Assembly (NCBI GenBank): GCA_945890485.1
Contig: CAMDCN010000016.1
Coordinates: 62,001 to 126,000 of the forward strand
From: Candidatus Sulfopaludibacter sp. SbA3
GTDB lineage: Bacteria; Acidobacteriota; Terriglobia; Bryobacterales; Bryobacteraceae
Direction: 5' to 3'
DNA length: 64,000 bases
The position numbers and the translations under genes are program-made. The notes beneath the pieces were generated by a model, which was not told where the DNA came from, did no database searches, and saw only the letters and a list, made by a program, of their open reading frames with translations. Shown piece after piece: positions 18,508 to 50,000 of the stretch (positions are counted from its first letter, which is position 1; each line of letters starts with the position of its first letter).

Positions 18508-18519
18508 TTGGAGGTACCA

Positions 18520-18822
18520 ATGGAACGGAAGCGAAATTTGAGTCCGGTGCACCCGGGAGAGATCTTGCGGGAGGAGTTTCTGGCCCCAATGGGCATATCG
18601 ATCAATGCACTGGCACGAGCACTACGGGTGCCTCCGAGCCAGGTTTCGGGGATTGTAAACGAGAAGCGTGGCATCAGTGCCTTGATGGCTCTGCGGTTGT
18701 CCCGCTACTTCGGCTGCTCCGCTGAACTCTGGCTGGGATTGCAGCAGGATTATGAGTTAGCGCGGGCGCTTGATCAGTCGGGGAGCCAAATTGCGGTCGA
18801 AGTACTGCCTCGGGCGAGCTGA
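18520..18822 (+). CDS. higA: HigA-type antitoxin (XRE helix-turn-helix)
   Basis: I start this at ATG 18520, which follows a strong GGAGGT ribosome site by 4-5 bases; an upstream TTG at 18508 would put that site inside the gene. The 100-residue product begins with the HigA mark NLSPVHPGEILREEFL and has a helix-turn-helix (SINALARALRVPPSQVSGIVNEKRGISALMALRLSRYF compressed into residues 30-70), then ELWLGLQQDYELARA. It should bind and neutralise HigB and repress the shared promoter. The strong ribosome site, against the probably leaderless toxin message, would favour antitoxin excess. Confidence 0.92.
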   Translation: MERKRNLSPVHPGEILREEFLAPMGISINALARALRVPPSQVSGIVNEKRGISALMALRLSRYFGCSAELWLGLQQDYELARALDQSGSQIAVEVLPRAS

Positions 18823-24140: not shown

Positions 24141-27100
24141 TCATGGGCAAGGATCGTCGGTTCGAGGCCGCTCGAGGGCGGTTCGCAGTGCTTCCAGCCA
24201 AACCCGGGCATCGGCTTCCCGCTGGTATGGGTCGTAGCGCAGTGCTCTGGCGAAGACGGCGGCCGCCGGTATCCCGGCCTCACGGAAATGCTCGTGGAGC
24301 GATTGTTCCCATTGATCGTTCATCGGCAGTTCGAGATCGGCGTAGCGGAGGTTCTTGAGCATCTCGAGCGCAATCACCGCCAAGGAATAGACGTCACTGG
24401 CGGCCGATGATCGCCCTAGCATCTGTTCCGGCGCCATATATAGGAAAGAGCCTGCCGGATGGGTCGTCGTCGAGAGATCTTCCCGCTGCAAGTGAAGCAC
24501 GGACGCGCCAAAGTCGATGACGATCGGCTGGTAACCACCTTCCGCGCAGGGCTCCAGTAAGACGTTTTCCGGCTTGAGATCACAGTGAACGATTCCCTGA
24601 GAGTGGGCCGCGGCCAAGGTACGGGCCATGCCGTCGAGTATTGCCAGCGCCTCCTGCTGGGGCACCGGCGCACGCACGGTCAGGAATTCTCGCAGCGTCG
24701 GCCCCTCAACAAAGCGCATAACCATGTGGGGCAGTCCCGCGGGGTCAACCCAGCTATCGAGGATCGGGAGCACGCCGGCGTCCCGCACCAGCGCGACGGC
24801 GGCGACCTCCTGAGCGAATCGCCGTCGCAACCACGATTCGCTCTGGGCGCTCCGCGTGGGCGGCGGCCGCAGTTGTTTGATGACGACCGAGGCTCCGCTG
24901 GACTCGTCGTCGGCGCTGTAGACATCGGCGAACCCTCCCTGATTCAGCAGCCGTGTAATTCGGTAGCGATCGCGCACCAGAACGCCAGGCGTCCAACGAG
25001 CGATCGGAGCAACTCGCAGGTTGCGCTGCCGCGTTTGCTGCGCTTGGAAAAACCGTCGCTTTTTCCAAGCGTAGCTCTGGCGTAAGAGGGCCGGCCACGC
25101 AAGCCAGCCGCAGATCAGTACCCCAACGGCCAGGAACACCGTGGCGCTCAGTGTCTGCCACCACTGGAGCTCAACTTCGGTCTTTACGGTCAGGGTTTCG
25201 GCCGAACCGGCGTAGCGAAGTTGCAATAGGCGCTCTCCGCCGCCCACCTCAGCGAGGGGGATGGCGTGCTGGGAGGCAGCCTGCCAAAGCTCGTCGCCAA
25301 AGCGGTATTCGATGGGCGCGGGCGCGATCAGCGCTGCTTCCGGAAGCGCCGACAGTTCCAATACCGCCGATTCGCCCTTCTGCCAGCGAAGGGTTCGATT
25401 CGATTCGGCCAGGGTGACCGACTGGGCTCGCCGGAGCACGCTCACCTGCGGAGGGGCGCCCGGGTCTTCCGCCAAGGCCTGATGGGGAATCTGATACAGG
25501 CGACTGTTCACGACCGTAAGAATCGACCCATCCGCTTCTTCCCGAAACACCTGCCCCATCTCTCCCGGTTCGATGCCCAGATTGGCGCTGACCGGGTTCC
25601 AGTCAGCAATCCGCGTGGGCGGGTTCCGGAGAGCGTTCCGGGCAAACGACAGGCCGCTGTCCGAGCCTCGCCAAAGGCGCGCCTGGCTGTCAAAAACCAG
25701 GAACTGTGTGTCGTTGGCGAAGCCGTTTCGGGTGCCGAAATGCTCACAGGTCCATGGTTGCTCCGGTGTAGCCCGCGTTGTACGGGTAAATCCATCCTGA
25801 TCCCGGTAGCCGATCCAGTATTCGTCGCTGGAGGAAATGGCGACCGTACGCATACGGGGCGATAGCAGGCAGGCGGGCGCCGGCAATTCTAGCCAATTGC
25901 CGGCTTCGTATCGGAGCAGAGCCCCTTCGGTGATGGCGTATAGCTGGTTTCGAGTGTCACGCACGAATTTCCCGAAGTATCGTTTGGTCGAGCTCAGAAA
26001 GCGGTAATGGAGCTGGGGCTGCTTCACGATCTCAATCAGGTTGTCCTTGGATGCCGCCCACAGGCGCCCGTCGGAGGTATGCGCGAGGTCCCAAATGTTT
26101 CGTACGAACTGACCGGGTTCGCCTCCATCGGGGTTTCGGGGGACCCGCGCCAAGAGCCGGCCCGTCCTGTCCAGGTGGACTACGTCTTTGTGGCGCTGCA
26201 CCGCCCAAAATGTTCCGTCCGGGTCCGCCACAATGGCGAGATAGGCGCCTCCCGGCGGGGCGTTCGGCAAGGCGCGCGGAACCACGGTGTTCACGGTGGC
26301 GCCGTTACAGAATGTGTATGGCGAAGGGCTGGCTCCAGTCAGATCGATGAGTTCCTGCTCCGTCGCCGCCAGCAACTGGTGGCCGATCCGGATGACATCG
26401 TGGATCGGGCTCTGCGGCGATTGGAAGCCATAAAGGATGCGGAGGCGTCCGTTCGGCGGAACCAGTGAAATCTCTTCCAGCCCTTCCGTCGCCCACACGC
26501 CGCCTCTTCTGTCCATCCCGAACCCGACGCTGTCGGTGGATGGCCTCGGGATCACCGTCGCAGCCAGGTTCGTTAACCACTGCCATTGATTGCACTGGTA
26601 GGCGAGGGCTTCGCCGTCGCGGGAAGCAATGGCCGTTCGGTTGGCCAGGATGGGCGGCGCTCGTAGCGACGATATCCATTGGCCGCCGCTTCGCCGCAAC
26701 TGGTGCAGCCTGCCTTGCGCCACGACGGCCAGGGCATCAGACCCAACTGGCACGACCTCCTCCGGCCAAAGGTCCGCGGGAAGGTTTTCGACGCCCTTTT
26801 CGATACCTGCCCCATTCCAGCGAACCCATTTCGCGACACCCGCCGCGCCGAACCATACCCGGCCCGCTGCATCGCCCCGAATCGTTCCGCGGCTTGGCGA
26901 TTCTGCAACCGGAATGGCTGCATTCTTGTCCCATACCGCGATGTGCTGTCCGGCGGCATAAAGGTAGTCCCCGGCCGCCGATATCGATGTCCACCGGGAA
27001 GATCCCGATAGCTTGCGGAATCGCCCGTCCTCGAGGCGCCAGACTGCGCCGTCCGAGAGCACCCAAACGGCGCCGTCGTTTGTCACCTCGACCCGGTCCC

Positions 27101-27317
27101 CGCTGCGGGCTGGTAACCCAAACTCGATAGCCGGCACGAGCCGAACACCGTCGAATCGAAACGTTCCGTTTGGCCCGGTCGCCCACGGAAATCCGGCCCG
27201 GTCAATCGTCACGCTATGGATCTTAGCGCCCAAAGTAGGATAACGGCGGACTCCATAGTGGAATGGTTGACTCCAAAGAAGCCATCCAGCGCCGAGCATG
27301 AGGGCCAAGGTGCGCAC
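24141..27317 (-). CDS. Membrane sensor Ser/Thr kinase: periplasmic propeller + Y_Y_Y-like domain + TM + C-terminal kinase
   Basis: This is about 1058 residues from GTG 27317; TTG 27347 gives 1068. Coordinates below follow the longer form. A signal or anchor (VRTLALMLGAGWLLW) is followed by some 600 residues of Reg_prop-like propeller blades (IDRAGFPWATGPNGTFRFDG, VTNDGAVWVLSDG, RDTRNQLYAITEGALLRYE). A Y_Y_Y-like Ig domain (about 640-725) and one TM helix (about 727-752) come next. The Ser/Thr kinase domain (about 787-1068) has the glycine loop LLNQGGFADVYSA, a VVIK lysine, HCDLKPENV (Cys in place of the Arg of HRD) and VIDFGAS. This is the layout of hybrid two-component sensors but with a Ser/Thr kinase as output. 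It is divergent from an ECF sigma gene. Confidence 0.88.
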   Translation of the reverse strand: MRTLALMLGAGWLLWSQPFHYGVRRYPTLGAKIHSVTIDRAGFPWATGPNGTFRFDGVRLVPAIEFGLPARSGDRVEVTNDGAVWVLSDGAVWRLEDGRFRKLSGSSRWTSISAAGDYLYAAGQHIAVWDKNAAIPVAESPSRGTIRGDAAGRVWFGAAGVAKWVRWNGAGIEKGVENLPADLWPEEVVPVGSDALAVVAQGRLHQLRRSGGQWISSLRAPPILANRTAIASRDGEALAYQCNQWQWLTNLAATVIPRPSTDSVGFGMDRRGGVWATEGLEEISLVPPNGRLRILYGFQSPQSPIHDVIRIGHQLLAATEQELIDLTGASPSPYTFCNGATVNTVVPRALPNAPPGGAYLAIVADPDGTFWAVQRHKDVVHLDRTGRLLARVPRNPDGGEPGQFVRNIWDLAHTSDGRLWAASKDNLIEIVKQPQLHYRFLSSTKRYFGKFVRDTRNQLYAITEGALLRYEAGNWLELPAPACLLSPRMRTVAISSSDEYWIGYRDQDGFTRTTRATPEQPWTCEHFGTRNGFANDTQFLVFDSQARLWRGSDSGLSFARNALRNPPTRIADWNPVSANLGIEPGEMGQVFREEADGSILTVVNSRLYQIPHQALAEDPGAPPQVSVLRRAQSVTLAESNRTLRWQKGESAVLELSALPEAALIAPAPIEYRFGDELWQAASQHAIPLAEVGGGERLLQLRYAGSAETLTVKTEVELQWWQTLSATVFLAVGVLICGWLAWPALLRQSYAWKKRRFFQAQQTRQRNLRVAPIARWTPGVLVRDRYRITRLLNQGGFADVYSADDESSGASVVIKQLRPPPTRSAQSESWLRRRFAQEVAAVALVRDAGVLPILDSWVDPAGLPHMVMRFVEGPTLREFLTVRAPVPQQEALAILDGMARTLAAAHSQGIVHCDLKPENVLLEPCAEGGYQPIVIDFGASVLHLQREDLSTTTHPAGSFLYMAPEQMLGRSSAASDVYSLAVIALEMLKNLRYADLELPMNDQWEQSLHEHFREAGIPAAAVFARALRYDPYQREADARVWLEALRTALERPRTDDPCP

Positions 27318-27337
27318 TTCTCTAGTATGCGAAGGAT

Positions 27338-27352
27338 TCCGATTCAATCGGA
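27338..27352. promoter_or_regulatory. 15-bp perfect palindrome in kinase/ECF divergent control region
   Basis: TCCGATTCAATCGGA has 7-bp arms around a single central C. It lies between the divergent Ser/Thr kinase and ECF sigma genes. A TATGCT at 27356-27361 is a candidate -10 for the sigma gene, whose ATG follows at 27368. A dimeric regulator bound here could control both genes. The symmetry is seen in the sequence; the role is inferred from position. Confidence 0.5.
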
Positions 27353-27367
27353 TGTTATGCTTTTGTC

Positions 27368-27916
27368 ATGGCAGCTACGGGGTCACTGACGGAACTGATT
27401 CGGAGAATGCAGGACGGTGACCGGGAAGCGGCCGGCTCTGTCTTTGCACAGGCGGCGGGAAGGCTGCGGGCGATGTCGAAAGCGATGGTAGCGCGGGATA
27501 CGCCCACGGCTGGATTTAACGCTTCCGACTTGGTTCAGGAAGCATTCGCCCGGAAGGTGCTGGGTCTGGACCGGCGGATGCGCATCAACGATTCGAGCCA
27601 TTTCTTCTCGGTCGTGGCGAATGGCATGCGACAGATTCTTACCGATCGCGCGCGGGGCCGTCGAGCGCAGAAGCGGCAGATGCCTTCGCTGCAAGAGTGG
27701 CTGGAGATCCACCGGCCGAATCGTCTGCGCGGAGATCTCGTGAGGGCGATGCAGAAGTTGGAACGGCTGGATCCGACAGCGCACCGTGTCGTGCAATTGA
27801 AGAATGACCACGGACTCACTTGGGACGAGGTGTCAATGGCGACCGGGTTGCAGGTAAAGGCGGCTCGGGCGGAGTTTGAGTACGCGATCCACTGGCTTCG
27901 GCGGGAGATCGCCTAA
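27368..27916 (+). CDS. ECF-type sigma factor, TIGR02999-like
   Basis: This 182-residue protein fits the ECF group common in Acidobacteria and Planctomycetes (TIGR02999). Region 2 is FNASDLVQEAFARKVLGLDRR followed by HFFSVVANGMRQILTDRARGRRAQKR. Region 4 has LDPTAHRVVQLKNDHGLTWDEVSMATGL, then a final YAIHWLRREIA. No anti-sigma gene is adjacent. Instead a Ser/Thr kinase gene is divergent from it. Related ECF43 factors such as Vibrio EcfP are activated by phosphorylation by the neighbouring kinase PknT, which suggests the same logic here. Predicted transcription starts so close to the ATG that the message may be leaderless. The 3' end overlaps the convergent gene by 4 bases. Confidence 0.88.
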   Translation: MAATGSLTELIRRMQDGDREAAGSVFAQAAGRLRAMSKAMVARDTPTAGFNASDLVQEAFARKVLGLDRRMRINDSSHFFSVVANGMRQILTDRARGRRAQKRQMPSLQEWLEIHRPNRLRGDLVRAMQKLERLDPTAHRVVQLKNDHGLTWDEVSMATGLQVKAARAEFEYAIHWLRREIA

Positions 27917-28701
27917 GCGTTCCACCCGGCTTTGGCACTAACCAGCAGGGTGTCCGCTTCCTGCGCCAGCCAGCGGCGGCCCGAGTCGGAAACCTGAGTG
28001 GCGATCGAGAAGGGGAACGCGGCCACCAGCGTATCGACGGCATAGCGGCGTCGGACGGGAGTCCCACCGACCAGGAGCGAGTGCGTAATTCCGTCTGGCC
28101 TGAGTTCGAAGCCTTCGAGGCTCCAGCCGGGATCTGCGCGGTCTAGGCTAAGGACGGTCTCGACTTCGCCGGTCACCTGGCGGACGCCGTAGGCCGCGGA
28201 GAAACGGGAACCGCCGCGGACGATGGCGATGTGCCGGTCACAAACGAGAAGGCCTCCGCCAATGTGACGGACTTGCCCGGTTTCGGCGTCCGTTTCTTCG
28301 AGAAGACGAAGTCCCGCCAGCAGGCCGGGTTCATGCGGTTGCAGCCGCCAATCTTCCACATAGGCGCCGCTAGGGGCGAACTCGATCAGGGCGTTCCCGA
28401 CCCGCCGGAGATCCGCGGGTTCGGGCCACTTATCGCGGTCGGCGAGGGCTGTCCAATCGGACCAGCGCATCTGGCGCCCATCCCAGGATGCGTTTGCGAC
28501 GCCCGCTTCGACATGGCCGGGGAGGCCGAAACGGAAGTCGGCGCAGAGCCGGCCGGATTGGAGCCAGTAGACCTGAGTTTCTGTATCGGTTTCCCCGGAG
28601 AAGAAGGTGATGGAGCGGCGGCGGAAGCAGCCGATTGTCCAGTCGGGCACTACCGGCGACGGCATTACCGGGTGGCGATGGGCGAGTTCGAGGAGGGTCA
28701 T
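27913..28701 (-). CDS. Unrecognised protein, possibly HRI1/lipocalin-like
   Basis: This 262-residue cytoplasmic protein has no signal peptide or membrane helix and is rich in beta strands. Landmarks are a Trp/Phe-rich opening TIGCFRRRSITFFSGETDTE, TQVYWLQSGRLCADFRFGLP, the acidic GNALIEFAPSGAYVEDWRLQ, and GGGLLVCDRHIAIVRG. The VYWLQ plus YVEDW segments loosely recall HRI1-like proteins, small beta-barrels of unknown biochemical role, but I would not assign that with confidence. Its ATG overlaps the stop of the IPNS-like oxygenase (ATGA), so the two are translated together and probably work on the same small molecule. The last 4 bases overlap the convergent ECF gene. Confidence 0.65.
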   Translation of the reverse strand: MTLLELAHRHPVMPSPVVPDWTIGCFRRRSITFFSGETDTETQVYWLQSGRLCADFRFGLPGHVEAGVANASWDGRQMRWSDWTALADRDKWPEPADLRRVGNALIEFAPSGAYVEDWRLQPHEPGLLAGLRLLEETDAETGQVRHIGGGLLVCDRHIAIVRGGSRFSAAYGVRQVTGEVETVLSLDRADPGWSLEGFELRPDGITHSLLVGGTPVRRRYAVDTLVAAFPFSIATQVSDSGRRWLAQEADTLLVSAKAGWNA

Positions 28702-31287: not shown

Positions 31288-32214
31288 CTACTTGCGGACC
31301 GGCGTGAGCCAGCCTTCAGTATCGGGGGTCTCGCCATTGATGACGCTGAAGAACTCCTTTTGGAGTTTCTCAGTGATAGGGCCGCGGCTGCCGGAGCCGA
31401 TGGTGATGCGGTCAACCGAGCGGATGGGGCTAACTTCAGCCGCCGTGCCGGTGAAAAACACCTCGTCGGCGATGTAGAGCGCTTCGCGAGGAATGGGGGT
31501 CTCGATCACTTCGAGGCCCATGCGCTTGGCAAGGAATGTGATCGTCGCACGGGTGATGCCCGGCAGGGCGCTGTTGCCGAGCGGCGGCGTGGTAATCTTG
31601 CCGTCGCGGACGACGAAGATGTTCTCGCCGGAGCCTTCCGAGATGTAGCCGTTGGTATCGAGAGCGATGCCTTCGGCGAAGCCATTGAAGTGCGCTTCCA
31701 TCCGGATCAACTGCGAATTCATGTAGTTGGCGCCAGCCTTGGCGAGGGCGGGCAGGGTGTTGGGCGCAATGCGATTCCAGCTCGAAATGCAGACGTCGAC
31801 GCCCTGGGCCAGGGCTTCGGCGCCGAGATATTGGCCCCAGGACCAGCAGGCCAGGTAGAGGTCATTCGGATTGTTGATGCCGAGGACGCCGAGCTCGTAA
31901 TAGCCGCGGAGGAGGATGGGACGGACGTAGCAGGCCTCAAGCTTGTTGACGCGAATGAGGTCGAGTACGGCTTCACACATCTGGTCGATCGTGAAATCGA
32001 CTTTGTCCATCCGGTAGATCTTGGCCGAGTCCATGAGCCGGCGCATGTGATCCCGAAGCCGGAACACCTGCGGACCGGCGGGCGTGTCATAGCAGCGGAT
32101 TCCTTCGAATACCGAGCTGCCGTAGCTGACGACGTGACTCAAAACATGGATCTTCGCGTCGTCCCAATCAATGAACTTACCGTTACACCAAATCTTATCT
32201 GTGGGCGTCAACAT
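31288..32214 (-). CDS. ilvE: Branched-chain amino acid aminotransferase
   Basis: This 308-residue PLP enzyme is of fold type IV. Landmarks are SHVVSYGSSVFEGIRCYDTP near the N-terminus and the catalytic lysine Lys159 in PALAKAGANYMNSQL. FAEGIALDTNGYISEGSGEN forms the PLP phosphate and Glu region, and EVFFTGTAAEVSPI is the substrate loop. It interconverts leucine, isoleucine and valine with their 2-oxo acids, using 2-oxoglutarate. No other ilv or leu gene is nearby, so it is a stand-alone unit with its own terminator. The C-terminus runs about 15 residues past the core (INGETPDTEGWLTPV), as is normal for the group. Confidence 0.95.
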   Translation of the reverse strand: MLTPTDKIWCNGKFIDWDDAKIHVLSHVVSYGSSVFEGIRCYDTPAGPQVFRLRDHMRRLMDSAKIYRMDKVDFTIDQMCEAVLDLIRVNKLEACYVRPILLRGYYELGVLGINNPNDLYLACWSWGQYLGAEALAQGVDVCISSWNRIAPNTLPALAKAGANYMNSQLIRMEAHFNGFAEGIALDTNGYISEGSGENIFVVRDGKITTPPLGNSALPGITRATITFLAKRMGLEVIETPIPREALYIADEVFFTGTAAEVSPIRSVDRITIGSGSRGPITEKLQKEFFSVINGETPDTEGWLTPVRK

Positions 32215-47020: not shown

Positions 47021-50000
47021 ATGAAGACGATTGGGCGGTATGAGGTCCTAGGTGAGATCGGTCGTGGCGGCTTTGGTGTTGTCTACCAAGCCCGTGATCC
47101 ACTTATGGACCGGACCGTTGCCATCAAGCTGATGTTGCGGGATGCGAGCGACGATCCGGCCGGCGCCGAGGCGCAGTTGGCTCGTTTCCGGCGAGAGGCG
47201 CAGATTACGGGTAATTTGAACCACCCGAATCTGGTCACCATTTTTGAGCTGGGTTCGCTCGAAGGGCAGCCCTACCTGGTGATGGAGTACATGCGGGGTT
47301 CTGACCTCGCCCAGGTGATCGAGTCCAAACGCCCGTTGACATTGGTCGATCGGCTGGATGCCTTGACGCAGGCGGCCACAGGATTGGCCCGTGCGCATCA
47401 GGAAGAGGTAGTGCACCGGGACATCAAGCCGCACAACATCTTCCTGCTTGAAGATCGCCGCGTCAAGGTGATGGACTTCGGGATTGCGCGCATCACAGGT
47501 GGATCGAATAAGACGCTGACGCGGACGGGATATCAACTGGGCAGTTTTCCGTGGATGGCTCCGGAGCAGTTTGATGGCGTGGCCGATTTCCAAACCGACA
47601 TCTGGGCCTTCGGGGTGACCGCCTATGAGCTGTTGACCGGGGCACACCCGTTCCTGACCGCGAAGTCCGGCTTCAGCACGGAAGAGATCTTCAGCCGCAT
47701 CGTATTCGCGCGATTTGCGCATCCTTCTGAGGTAGCCCCAGCGTTACCTCCCGCGGTTTCGGACGTGCTGGTCCGCACGATGAAGAAGGATCGGACGCAG
47801 CGGTATGTTTCGATGGATGAAGTGCTGCTCGATCTGGAGGCTTTGCTGGGTGGAGAACGGCAAAGATTGGCGAGCACGCTGGTCCGCCAAGCAGATGTTC
47901 ACCGTCTTGAGGGGAACGCGGACAGGGCGCTAGAGCTGGTTCGAGAGGCGTTGCAGTTGGACAATACCAACCGCGAGGGCCACCAACTGAGACGCCATTT
48001 GCAGACAGAGGTCCGGTCCCGCCAGACGGGACGGCAGGTCGCTCAGGCGCTGCAGGAGGCCAATGAACTGGTGGGGCGGCAGCAGTTGGGCGGCGCCATG
48101 GAAGTGCTTGAAAAGGCGCTGGCCCTCGATTCCGAGAATCAGGCCTTGCGGCAGCGGCTTGGCGAACTCGACGCGGAGCGGCAACGGGTTGCTCAGGTTG
48201 GGCGTTTGGTGGAGGCGTCGGAAAAGGCACTCGCGGAGCACGACCTTCTGGTGGCGCGAAACCTTGCCCAACAAGCCTTGACCTTGGATGGTGGGGATCG
48301 AGCCGCCCGAGCAATCCTCGGCCGAGTTGAAGCTGCGGAGAAGCGCGTTGCATCATTGCAATCGCTCTCTGCTTCGCTGGAGGCGACGCGCGCAACGCTG
48401 GCGCTCGGAGAGGTCTCCCCCGCCCGGCAGCAGCTAGCGGAGTTCGACCGGAAGGCACAACAGATCGATATTCCGGGGCATCTTCAGCAGTTGCGCGGAG
48501 AGGTCGGCGAGGAGTTGAAGCAGGCTCAGCGGGCTGCGCAGACGATGGAGGCCGCTGGCGTTGCGCTGCAGCGCCAGGACTTCCGAGGCGCGTTAGGACT
48601 GCTCGAAGCGCTACAGGGCGTACCTCAGCAGGGGGTCGTGCAGGCGATGATTCTGCAGGCCCGTTCGCAGTTGGCGGCGTGGGCGAGCAGCTTTAGCTCC
48701 AATGCGATTCTGCCGCGGGTGAAGGAGCTGCGGGCCGCGGGAAGCCACGCCGAAGCGCTGGCTGAACTGCGCCGGGCGATTGAAATCAACCCGAGCGACG
48801 ATCGGCTGAGGCAGATGGCGGAGTGGGTGGAGCGCGAGTGTCAGGAGCAGGAGGCGCTGACGGCAATTCTCCCGTTTGAGCAGGAGATCCGGAGCCGATT
48901 TGTCGCGGACGTGGGTGGATCGTTCGATCGGATCGACGAGGTTCTGGTACGCTACGCCGGACTGCCCGGTCCCATCGCGAAGCTGCAGGAGCTGCGGTCG
49001 AGCCTGTTATCGGTATTGTCGAGCTCCGCCGAACGCGCCTTGAATGAAGGTGATTTGGCGGCGCAGCAGAATCTGGCCCCGGCATTGCTACTGGCGACAC
49101 AACGGTTTCCTGCCGCCTTGGACTTGCAGTCCCTTACCGGTCGCGTGCACCGGAACTTGGAAAGAATGCGCGCCGAAGAGGCCATCCGGATGGTTGAAGC
49201 CGGACTGCAGACCGGCCAGGCCACGGTGGCCGAATCAGCATGCGCAGCCCTCGCGGACGTTCCGGGAGTCTCGGAGTCGGCTCAAGGAAGGCTGGGGCAA
49301 TTGGCGTGGACCACCTCGCAATCGATGGCACGGGGCGCTGAGCGGGGCACAGAGCAGGAGTTGCGGCAATTGGATGAAGCTTTACGCTTCGCGCAGATTG
49401 CGGTGCGATTGCGCGGGGTTTCATCCCAAGAATTGGCCCGGTGGATTGAAGGGCTGGAGGCCCGGCGGCGTCTGTGTTCGCGGCGGAAGGCGTTGCTCGA
49501 GAGCGCTCAGAAAGGAGTGCAGTCCGGAAGCGCGAAGAAACAGTTTGAGCGGGAGTTGACTCTGTTTGCCGCCGATACGCAAGGCGACGTCGCGGAACTG
49601 GCGTTTTTCGTAGACGCCGTCCGAATTGCCAGTCAGCCGTTACGCGAGGCCGGGAAACAGGGGCAGGTCCGGGCGATGATCGATAAAGCGATCGAGTTGC
49701 GGCCAGATTCCCGCGCGGCATTCGTTGCCGATTTAACGCAACCGATCGCCGTTCCGGCGCAGCGCGCGGCGGGCGATCTGCGGATGTGGATTGTGTTGGG
49801 TACGGTGGTGCTGGTTGCAAGTGGAGGCCTCTTTTACTGGATGAATCGGCCCCAGGCGGTTACGAACGAAGCTCCACCGTTAGAGATTGCCAAATCGGTG
49901 GTAGCTCCGCCCGCGACCAAGGAACCGGTTCCGGCTCCGCGCGAAGAGCCGGCGCGTCCAATCGCCACGCCGCCGGCCGTTCCGCCCCCAACTTTGCCGG

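Follow-up and report, generated by a model that had tools for sequence, protein, structure and literature searches.

A periplasmic double-propeller sensor kinase adjoining an ECF sigma factor in Candidatus Sulfopaludibacter: a candidate one-kinase, one-sigma transmembrane switch

Ser/Thr phosphorylation has been demonstrated to activate a sigma factor in a few pairs, namely EcfP, EcfK and a Hyphomonas pair (excerpt of PMC8999054). In these three, the signal sensed by the kinase is not defined. In PknT/EcfP from Vibrio parahaemolyticus and PknS/EcfK from Xanthomonas citri (ECF43 type), the kinase gene adjoins the gene of an extracytoplasmic function (ECF) sigma factor that has no anti-sigma factor, and region 2.2 of EcfP and EcfK lacks the DAED motif and carries a Ser or Thr at its third position. 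The excerpted reports give this motif as STTA in EcfP, with phosphorylation of the second Thr (PMC8999054), and as QATE in EcfK, phosphorylated at T51 (PMC13147305). Within ECF43, Thr occupies the acceptor position in 88% of members and is followed by an acidic residue in 15.8% (PMC13147305, excerpt), and for ECF59 the acceptor is given as Ser, with a kinase gene nearby (PMC8103513, excerpt). We describe here a locus with the same gene adjacency and the same type of sigma motif in a 64,000-nucleotide stretch of DNA from Candidatus Sulfopaludibacter sp. SbA3, hereafter the window (C16:62001-126000 of a 7.1 Mb assembly). A kinase open reading frame on the minus strand (24141-27347) diverges there from a sigma factor open reading frame on the plus strand (27368-27916), as originally predicted. 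By analogy with the described pairs, we read this locus as a one-kinase, one-sigma transmembrane switch of the EcfP/PknT or EcfK/PknS type, equipped with a sensor of the hybrid two-component kind, and give this reading a probability of about 0.7.

The original prediction attributed to the kinase gene the layout of a hybrid two-component sensor with a C-terminal Ser/Thr kinase as output, and this layout was confirmed. A profile search of the sensor matched PDB entry 4a2l (E = 2.6e-40), and the best PDB fold matches of the modelled sensor were the Bacteroides hybrid two-component sensors BT4663, BT4673 and BT3049, whose periplasmic double propeller and Y_Y_Y domain the window kinase shares. Reg_prop was detected by Pfam in all 14 aligned members of the kinase family, with a single weak match (26.3 bits) in the window kinase. 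Pfam Y_Y_Y was matched in one of these members only and not in the window kinase, but the fold of BT4663 (4a2l) aligns over residues 1-697 of the sensor model (residues 33-729 of the protein) and thus spans the region, so that a Y_Y_Y-like domain was accepted. The sensor was modelled separately because the Foldseek matches listed for the full-length model comprised kinase chains only. In the three Bacteroides proteins one transmembrane helix follows the sensor, and the window kinase likewise has one. It differs from them in its output, a Hanks-type kinase instead of HisKA, HATPase and response-regulator domains; no HisKA/HATPase or receiver/helix-turn-helix output was found by Pfam in the window kinase or in the 14 members, whose matches cover 12 families. 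PknS combines an N-terminal kinase with a C-terminal periplasmic tetratricopeptide repeat (TPR) region (PMC13147305, excerpt); the window kinase has the opposite domain order and a double propeller in place of the TPR region. Periplasmic sensing by the kinase, also anticipated, is thus supported by profile and fold as to the type of sensor but is not new as such, given the periplasmic domain of PknS.

In the output half, the Pfam Pkinase domain matched residues 795-999 (E = 1.5e-27), and the top Foldseek matches of the full-length model, among the matches listed, were PknB- and PknA-type kinases. The catalytic residues of Hanks-type kinases are all present: Lys824, Glu847, Asp923 of HxD, Asp945 of DFG and the APE motif are invariant in 14/14 aligned members, as is Thr961 of the activation segment. 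The Arg of HRD is replaced by Cys. This HCD had been called unusual, a judgement that did not hold, because the middle residue is a variable position among the family kinases: of 29, HRD is found in 23, HCD in two (the window and L033), HLD in two, HSD in one and HGD in one. HCD also occurs in one further kinase of the window's genome (L061), and eukaryotic DYRK kinases typically carry HCDLKPEN as well. HCD as a sign of a special or dead kinase was therefore rejected. That the loss of the Arg has left a catalytically dead protein acting by docking only is very improbable, as the catalytic Asp is kept along with the other invariant residues, and L033 and L032 carry HCD or HSD with their other motifs intact.

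The divergent gene encodes an ECF sigma factor, matching PF07638 with E = 3.8e-21 (Pfam) and TIGR02999 with 99.8 bits, under the 126.15 cut-off (NCBIfam). The expected lack of an anti-sigma neighbour agrees with the scan of the flanks: none was named among the flanking window proteins scanned (eight by NCBIfam and six by Pfam, the protein at 27913-28701 being unmatched), and the kinase gene adjoins the sigma gene at 20-50 bp. In region 2.2, DAED is replaced by NASD with Ser at the third position, a Ser/Thr kinase-linked type of motif. This Ser53 coincides with the phospho-acceptor of EcfP, which strengthens the proposed parallel with the Vibrio system. The putative acceptor is Ser, in contrast to the Thr of EcfP, EcfK and the ECF43 consensus, while Asp54 is kept, as EcfK keeps an acidic residue in QATE. 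The ECF59-type sigmas, likened here by description (PMC8103513, excerpt), are given as phosphorylated on Ser and likewise have a kinase gene nearby. Among the family sigmas, 24 of 29 have Ser or Thr at motif position 3, and in the window sigma as well as each of its four closest relatives it is Ser (NASD, HASD, HPSD, QASD and DASD; the relatives with QASD and DASD were placed as close by identity, not by tree). The same position is Ser or Thr in 24/24 other kinase-linked sigmas of the window's genome. Ordinary sigmas of this genome, with a motif readable by pattern in 20 of 40, showed Ser or Thr there in none of the 20, position 3 being acidic in 15 and position 4 in 20.

Several observations count against the proposed switch. 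On the sigma side, five of the 29 family sigmas lack Ser or Thr at position 3 (ETKS in three, SAQD and YSGD), and the retention of Asp54, together with a same-genus relative that reads DASD, implies that the unphosphorylated sigma may retain some activity. EcfK carries phosphate at T51 and in its linker; T51A alone is tolerated, while T51A combined with the linker substitution T106A abolishes function (PMC13147305, excerpt); since either T51 or T106 is enough in EcfK, a second site could suffice in the window sigma. These points favour an alternative in which the kinase phosphorylates the sigma factor but the decisive site lies elsewhere, for instance at Ser107 of the sigma2-sigma4 linker (compare EcfK Thr106), or in which phosphorylation turns the sigma off. 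We consider this unlikely: the residue aligned with Ser107 is Ser in L033 but Pro in L032, whereas all four closest relatives of the window sigma share its Ser53. The structure models, for their part, are of moderate confidence (predicted local distance difference test, pLDDT, 70.9 and 77.0).

Linkage of the two genes extends well beyond the window. A search of 237 genomes of the window's taxonomic family with the 14-member alignment revealed at least 30 genes of the sensor plus C-terminal kinase family in 26 genomes; it gave 31 matches at E 1e-120, two of which (G113:C48 and G113:C175) seem to be parts of a single gene broken at contig ends and were counted once, and only the best three candidates per genome were scored, so that 30 is a lower bound. 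The original prediction had named homologues that never lie beside an ECF gene as the finding that would speak against it; a PF07638-type sigma gene adjoins 29 of the 30. The arrangement of these 29 pairs varies: 22 are convergent, 15 of them 10 bp or less apart or overlapping as judged by match ends, four are tandem with the sigma upstream, one is tandem with the sigma downstream, and two, the window and L033, are divergent. The predicted divergence is thus real in the window but was ruled out as the usual layout of the family. Because gene order has varied, the kinase-sigma linkage itself appears to be kept by selection. Distances between kinase domains and between sigmas correlate strongly over the 29 pairs (r = 0.90, Mantel p = 0.0005), and the kinase and sigma trees agree on a clade of the window, L032 and L033.

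Pairing of a kinase with a sigma factor is not unusual in itself. The window's genome contains 50 Pkinase matches and 32 PF07638 matches, of which 25 exceed 75 bits, and a Pkinase match lies within 3.5 kb of all 25 strong PF07638 sigmas compared with two of 40 other sigma-70 region-2 matches (42 found, 40 examined); pairing as a distinguishing feature was therefore ruled out and is better seen as a common trait of the genome as a whole. The kinases of the 24 other pairs mostly carry their kinase domain at the N-terminus, as PknS does. So many kinases and sigmas lend some weight to the view that the kinase has other substrates, the neighbouring sigma being not its main target or being shared among the genome's many kinases. 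The remaining counterpoints bear on the same question: distances co-vary little in the 24 other pairs (r = 0.14, p = 0.11), the family correlation may in part reflect shared descent of neighbouring genes, and a second propeller-sensor kinase of the genome (L031:5442-8615, contig C13), the sole orphan of the 30, has no sigma gene within the roughly 5 kb searched on each side. Against this view stand the 29/30 linkage despite rearranged gene order and the Mantel correlation within the family, and we regard it as distinctly improbable. Nor did the surroundings indicate a conserved target within the flanks compared, since neighbours do not recur: of ten window neighbours set against 32 family loci, only NagA and the gene at 31288-32214 were found again, both in L210 from the same genus.

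For the one-kinase, one-sigma switch, a mechanism can be proposed in which the ligand, the dimer mechanism, the direction of the effect, the phosphorylation and the target genes are modelled on the hybrid two-component sensors, PknT/EcfP and PknS/EcfK. The periplasmic double propeller and Y_Y_Y-like domain would bind a ligand, by analogy a poly- or oligosaccharide. The signal would cross the single transmembrane helix and alter how two cytoplasmic Hanks kinase domains pair, rendering them active. The active kinase would then phosphorylate the neighbouring sigma at Ser53 in region 2.2, and phospho-Ser53 would restore negative charge where ordinary sigmas carry DAED, allowing binding to RNA polymerase and switching on the target genes.

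Animal and plant receptor kinases have the same domain order as the window kinase, with an outside N-terminal sensor, a transmembrane segment and a C-terminal kinase. We lean, with slightly better than even confidence, towards regarding the family as a distinct, lineage-bound class of receptor kinases, in which a C-terminal Hanks kinase is set behind one transmembrane helix on an N-terminal outside sensor of the hybrid two-component type and would directly activate a dedicated ECF sigma through one Ser/Thr of region 2.2, carrying a signal, probably a glycan, to RNA polymerase in a single phosphotransfer. What appears to be new here is the type of sensor and the reversed domain order; the switch of the EcfP/EcfK kind, the pairing of kinase and sigma and the periplasmic domain on PknS were already known. 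No published combination of a propeller sensor with a Ser/Thr kinase was found among the open-access papers searched; the Iyer 2020 survey of ECF43-linked kinase sensors may include one. As the structure of this class of sensor is understood, the identity of the ligand and the passage of the signal across the membrane become open to testing. The same type of sensor is found in the Reg_prop diguanylate cyclases L088, L091, L092 and L101, where the output is exchanged for GGDEF and the fetched flanks contain no kinase or PF07638-type sigma. That one sensor class feeds histidine kinases, diguanylate cyclases and Hanks kinases suggests that unrelated outputs are able to read its transmembrane signal. 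These four cyclases come from Rhodanobacter, Terriglobus and two Proteobacteria metagenome-assembled genomes (MAGs).

The distribution of the family was also examined more widely. In a phylum-wide sample of 396 genomes, 29 had a match at E 1e-60, and the only two full-length matches were both in the window's genome, with one same-family genome matching in the sensor only and the rest in the kinase part; since the best two candidates per genome were scored, these counts are lower bounds and the absence outside the family holds within that scope. A collection of species genomes, queried with one narrow peptide pattern, gave 31 loci, of which 13 combine the sensor with a C-terminal kinase, each with a convergent sigma (13/13). 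These 13 coincide with 13 of the 30 family genes and are not independent cases; they come from MAGs labelled Bryobacterales, Bryobacteraceae, Bryobacter, Terriglobia, Acidobacteriia or Acidobacteria. A further pattern locus, L086, is interrupted by an apparent mobile element. The flanks fetched for the 17 other pattern loci showed neither a kinase nor a PF07638-type sigma; eight of these loci, scanned with Pfam, yielded GGDEF (four), HisKA/HATPase/receiver (three) and HATPase alone (one). Among the remaining nine, L089 is probably a truncated family member, the same gene as G113:C48.

Three loci show incomplete or separated genes. In an Acidobacteria MAG (L086:4261-12644), a family member is split at the start of the kinase domain by about 4 kb resembling a mobile element, which encodes two proteins similar to a TniB-type ATPase and a TniA-type transposase (named by eye) besides a serine recombinase and an alpha/beta hydrolase-like protein; a convergent sigma open reading frame of 206 aa follows the split kinase. 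In L210 (L210:5587-6713), a fragment of the kinase gene (residues 37-185), cut by the contig end, diverges from a sigma whose coding region lies in two frames, through decay or assembly error. A sigma relative with 41% identity (L209) lies at a contig start, and no kinase was found within the 8 kb examined.

Table 1. Coordinates of the kinase and sigma genes and their features in the window
Feature	Position	Strand	Basis
Transmembrane sensor Ser/Thr kinase, 1068 aa from TTG	24141..27347	-	Open reading frame, Pkinase and Reg_prop matches, family alignment
Cytoplasmic Hanks-type kinase domain, residues about 793-1059	24171..24971	-	Pkinase; PknB/PknA fold matches; invariant catalytic residues
Catalytic HCD of kinase, within HCDLKPEN, residues 921-928	24579-24587	-	
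Single transmembrane helix, residues 731-756	25080..25157	-	Hydropathy 2.24; model helix 730-749, low pLDDT
Y_Y_Y-like beta domain before membrane, residues about 640-729	25161..25430	-	Alignment of 4a2l_B with model residues 1-697
Periplasmic Reg_prop double beta-propeller, residues about 33-640	25428..27251	-	Pfam in family, PDB profile, fold
N-terminal hydrophobic segment, residues 1-30	27258..27347	-	Sequence; model helix 5-25
Gap between divergent start codons, 20 bp (50 bp if kinase starts at GTG 27317)	27348..27367	.	
ECF-type sigma factor, PF07638 Sigma70_ECF, 182 aa	27368..27916	+	Pfam, NCBIfam
N51-A52-S53-D54, equivalent of DAED in sigma region 2.2	27518..27529	+	Alignments of Ser/Thr kinase-linked sigmas, close relatives
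Ser53 codon, proposed phospho-acceptor	27524-27526	+	Aligns with phosphorylated position of Vibrio EcfP

The kinase has two candidate starts, TTG at 27347 and an in-frame GTG at 27317, ten codons on, which would give 1058 aa; its N-terminal hydrophobic segment is likely a signal peptide. A scan between the kinase and sigma genes found no sigma-70 promoter-like site and one terminator-like site, no more than expected by chance.

Around the pair, the window encodes, among other proteins, an intradiol dioxygenase, a WD40 protein, a 2-oxoglutarate-Fe(II) (2OG-Fe(II)) oxygenase and a NagA-like deacetylase. The product of the gene at 27913-28701 has 262 aa and matches no Pfam family at E 0.01; the stop codon of this gene overlaps that of the sigma gene by 4 bp, tail-to-tail. 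Elsewhere in the window, a second Pkinase match lies at 47039-47809 in an open frame of 1154 aa, with no PF07638 match nearby, and a HigA-type antitoxin gene is found at 18508-18822 (TIGR02607, 109 bits).

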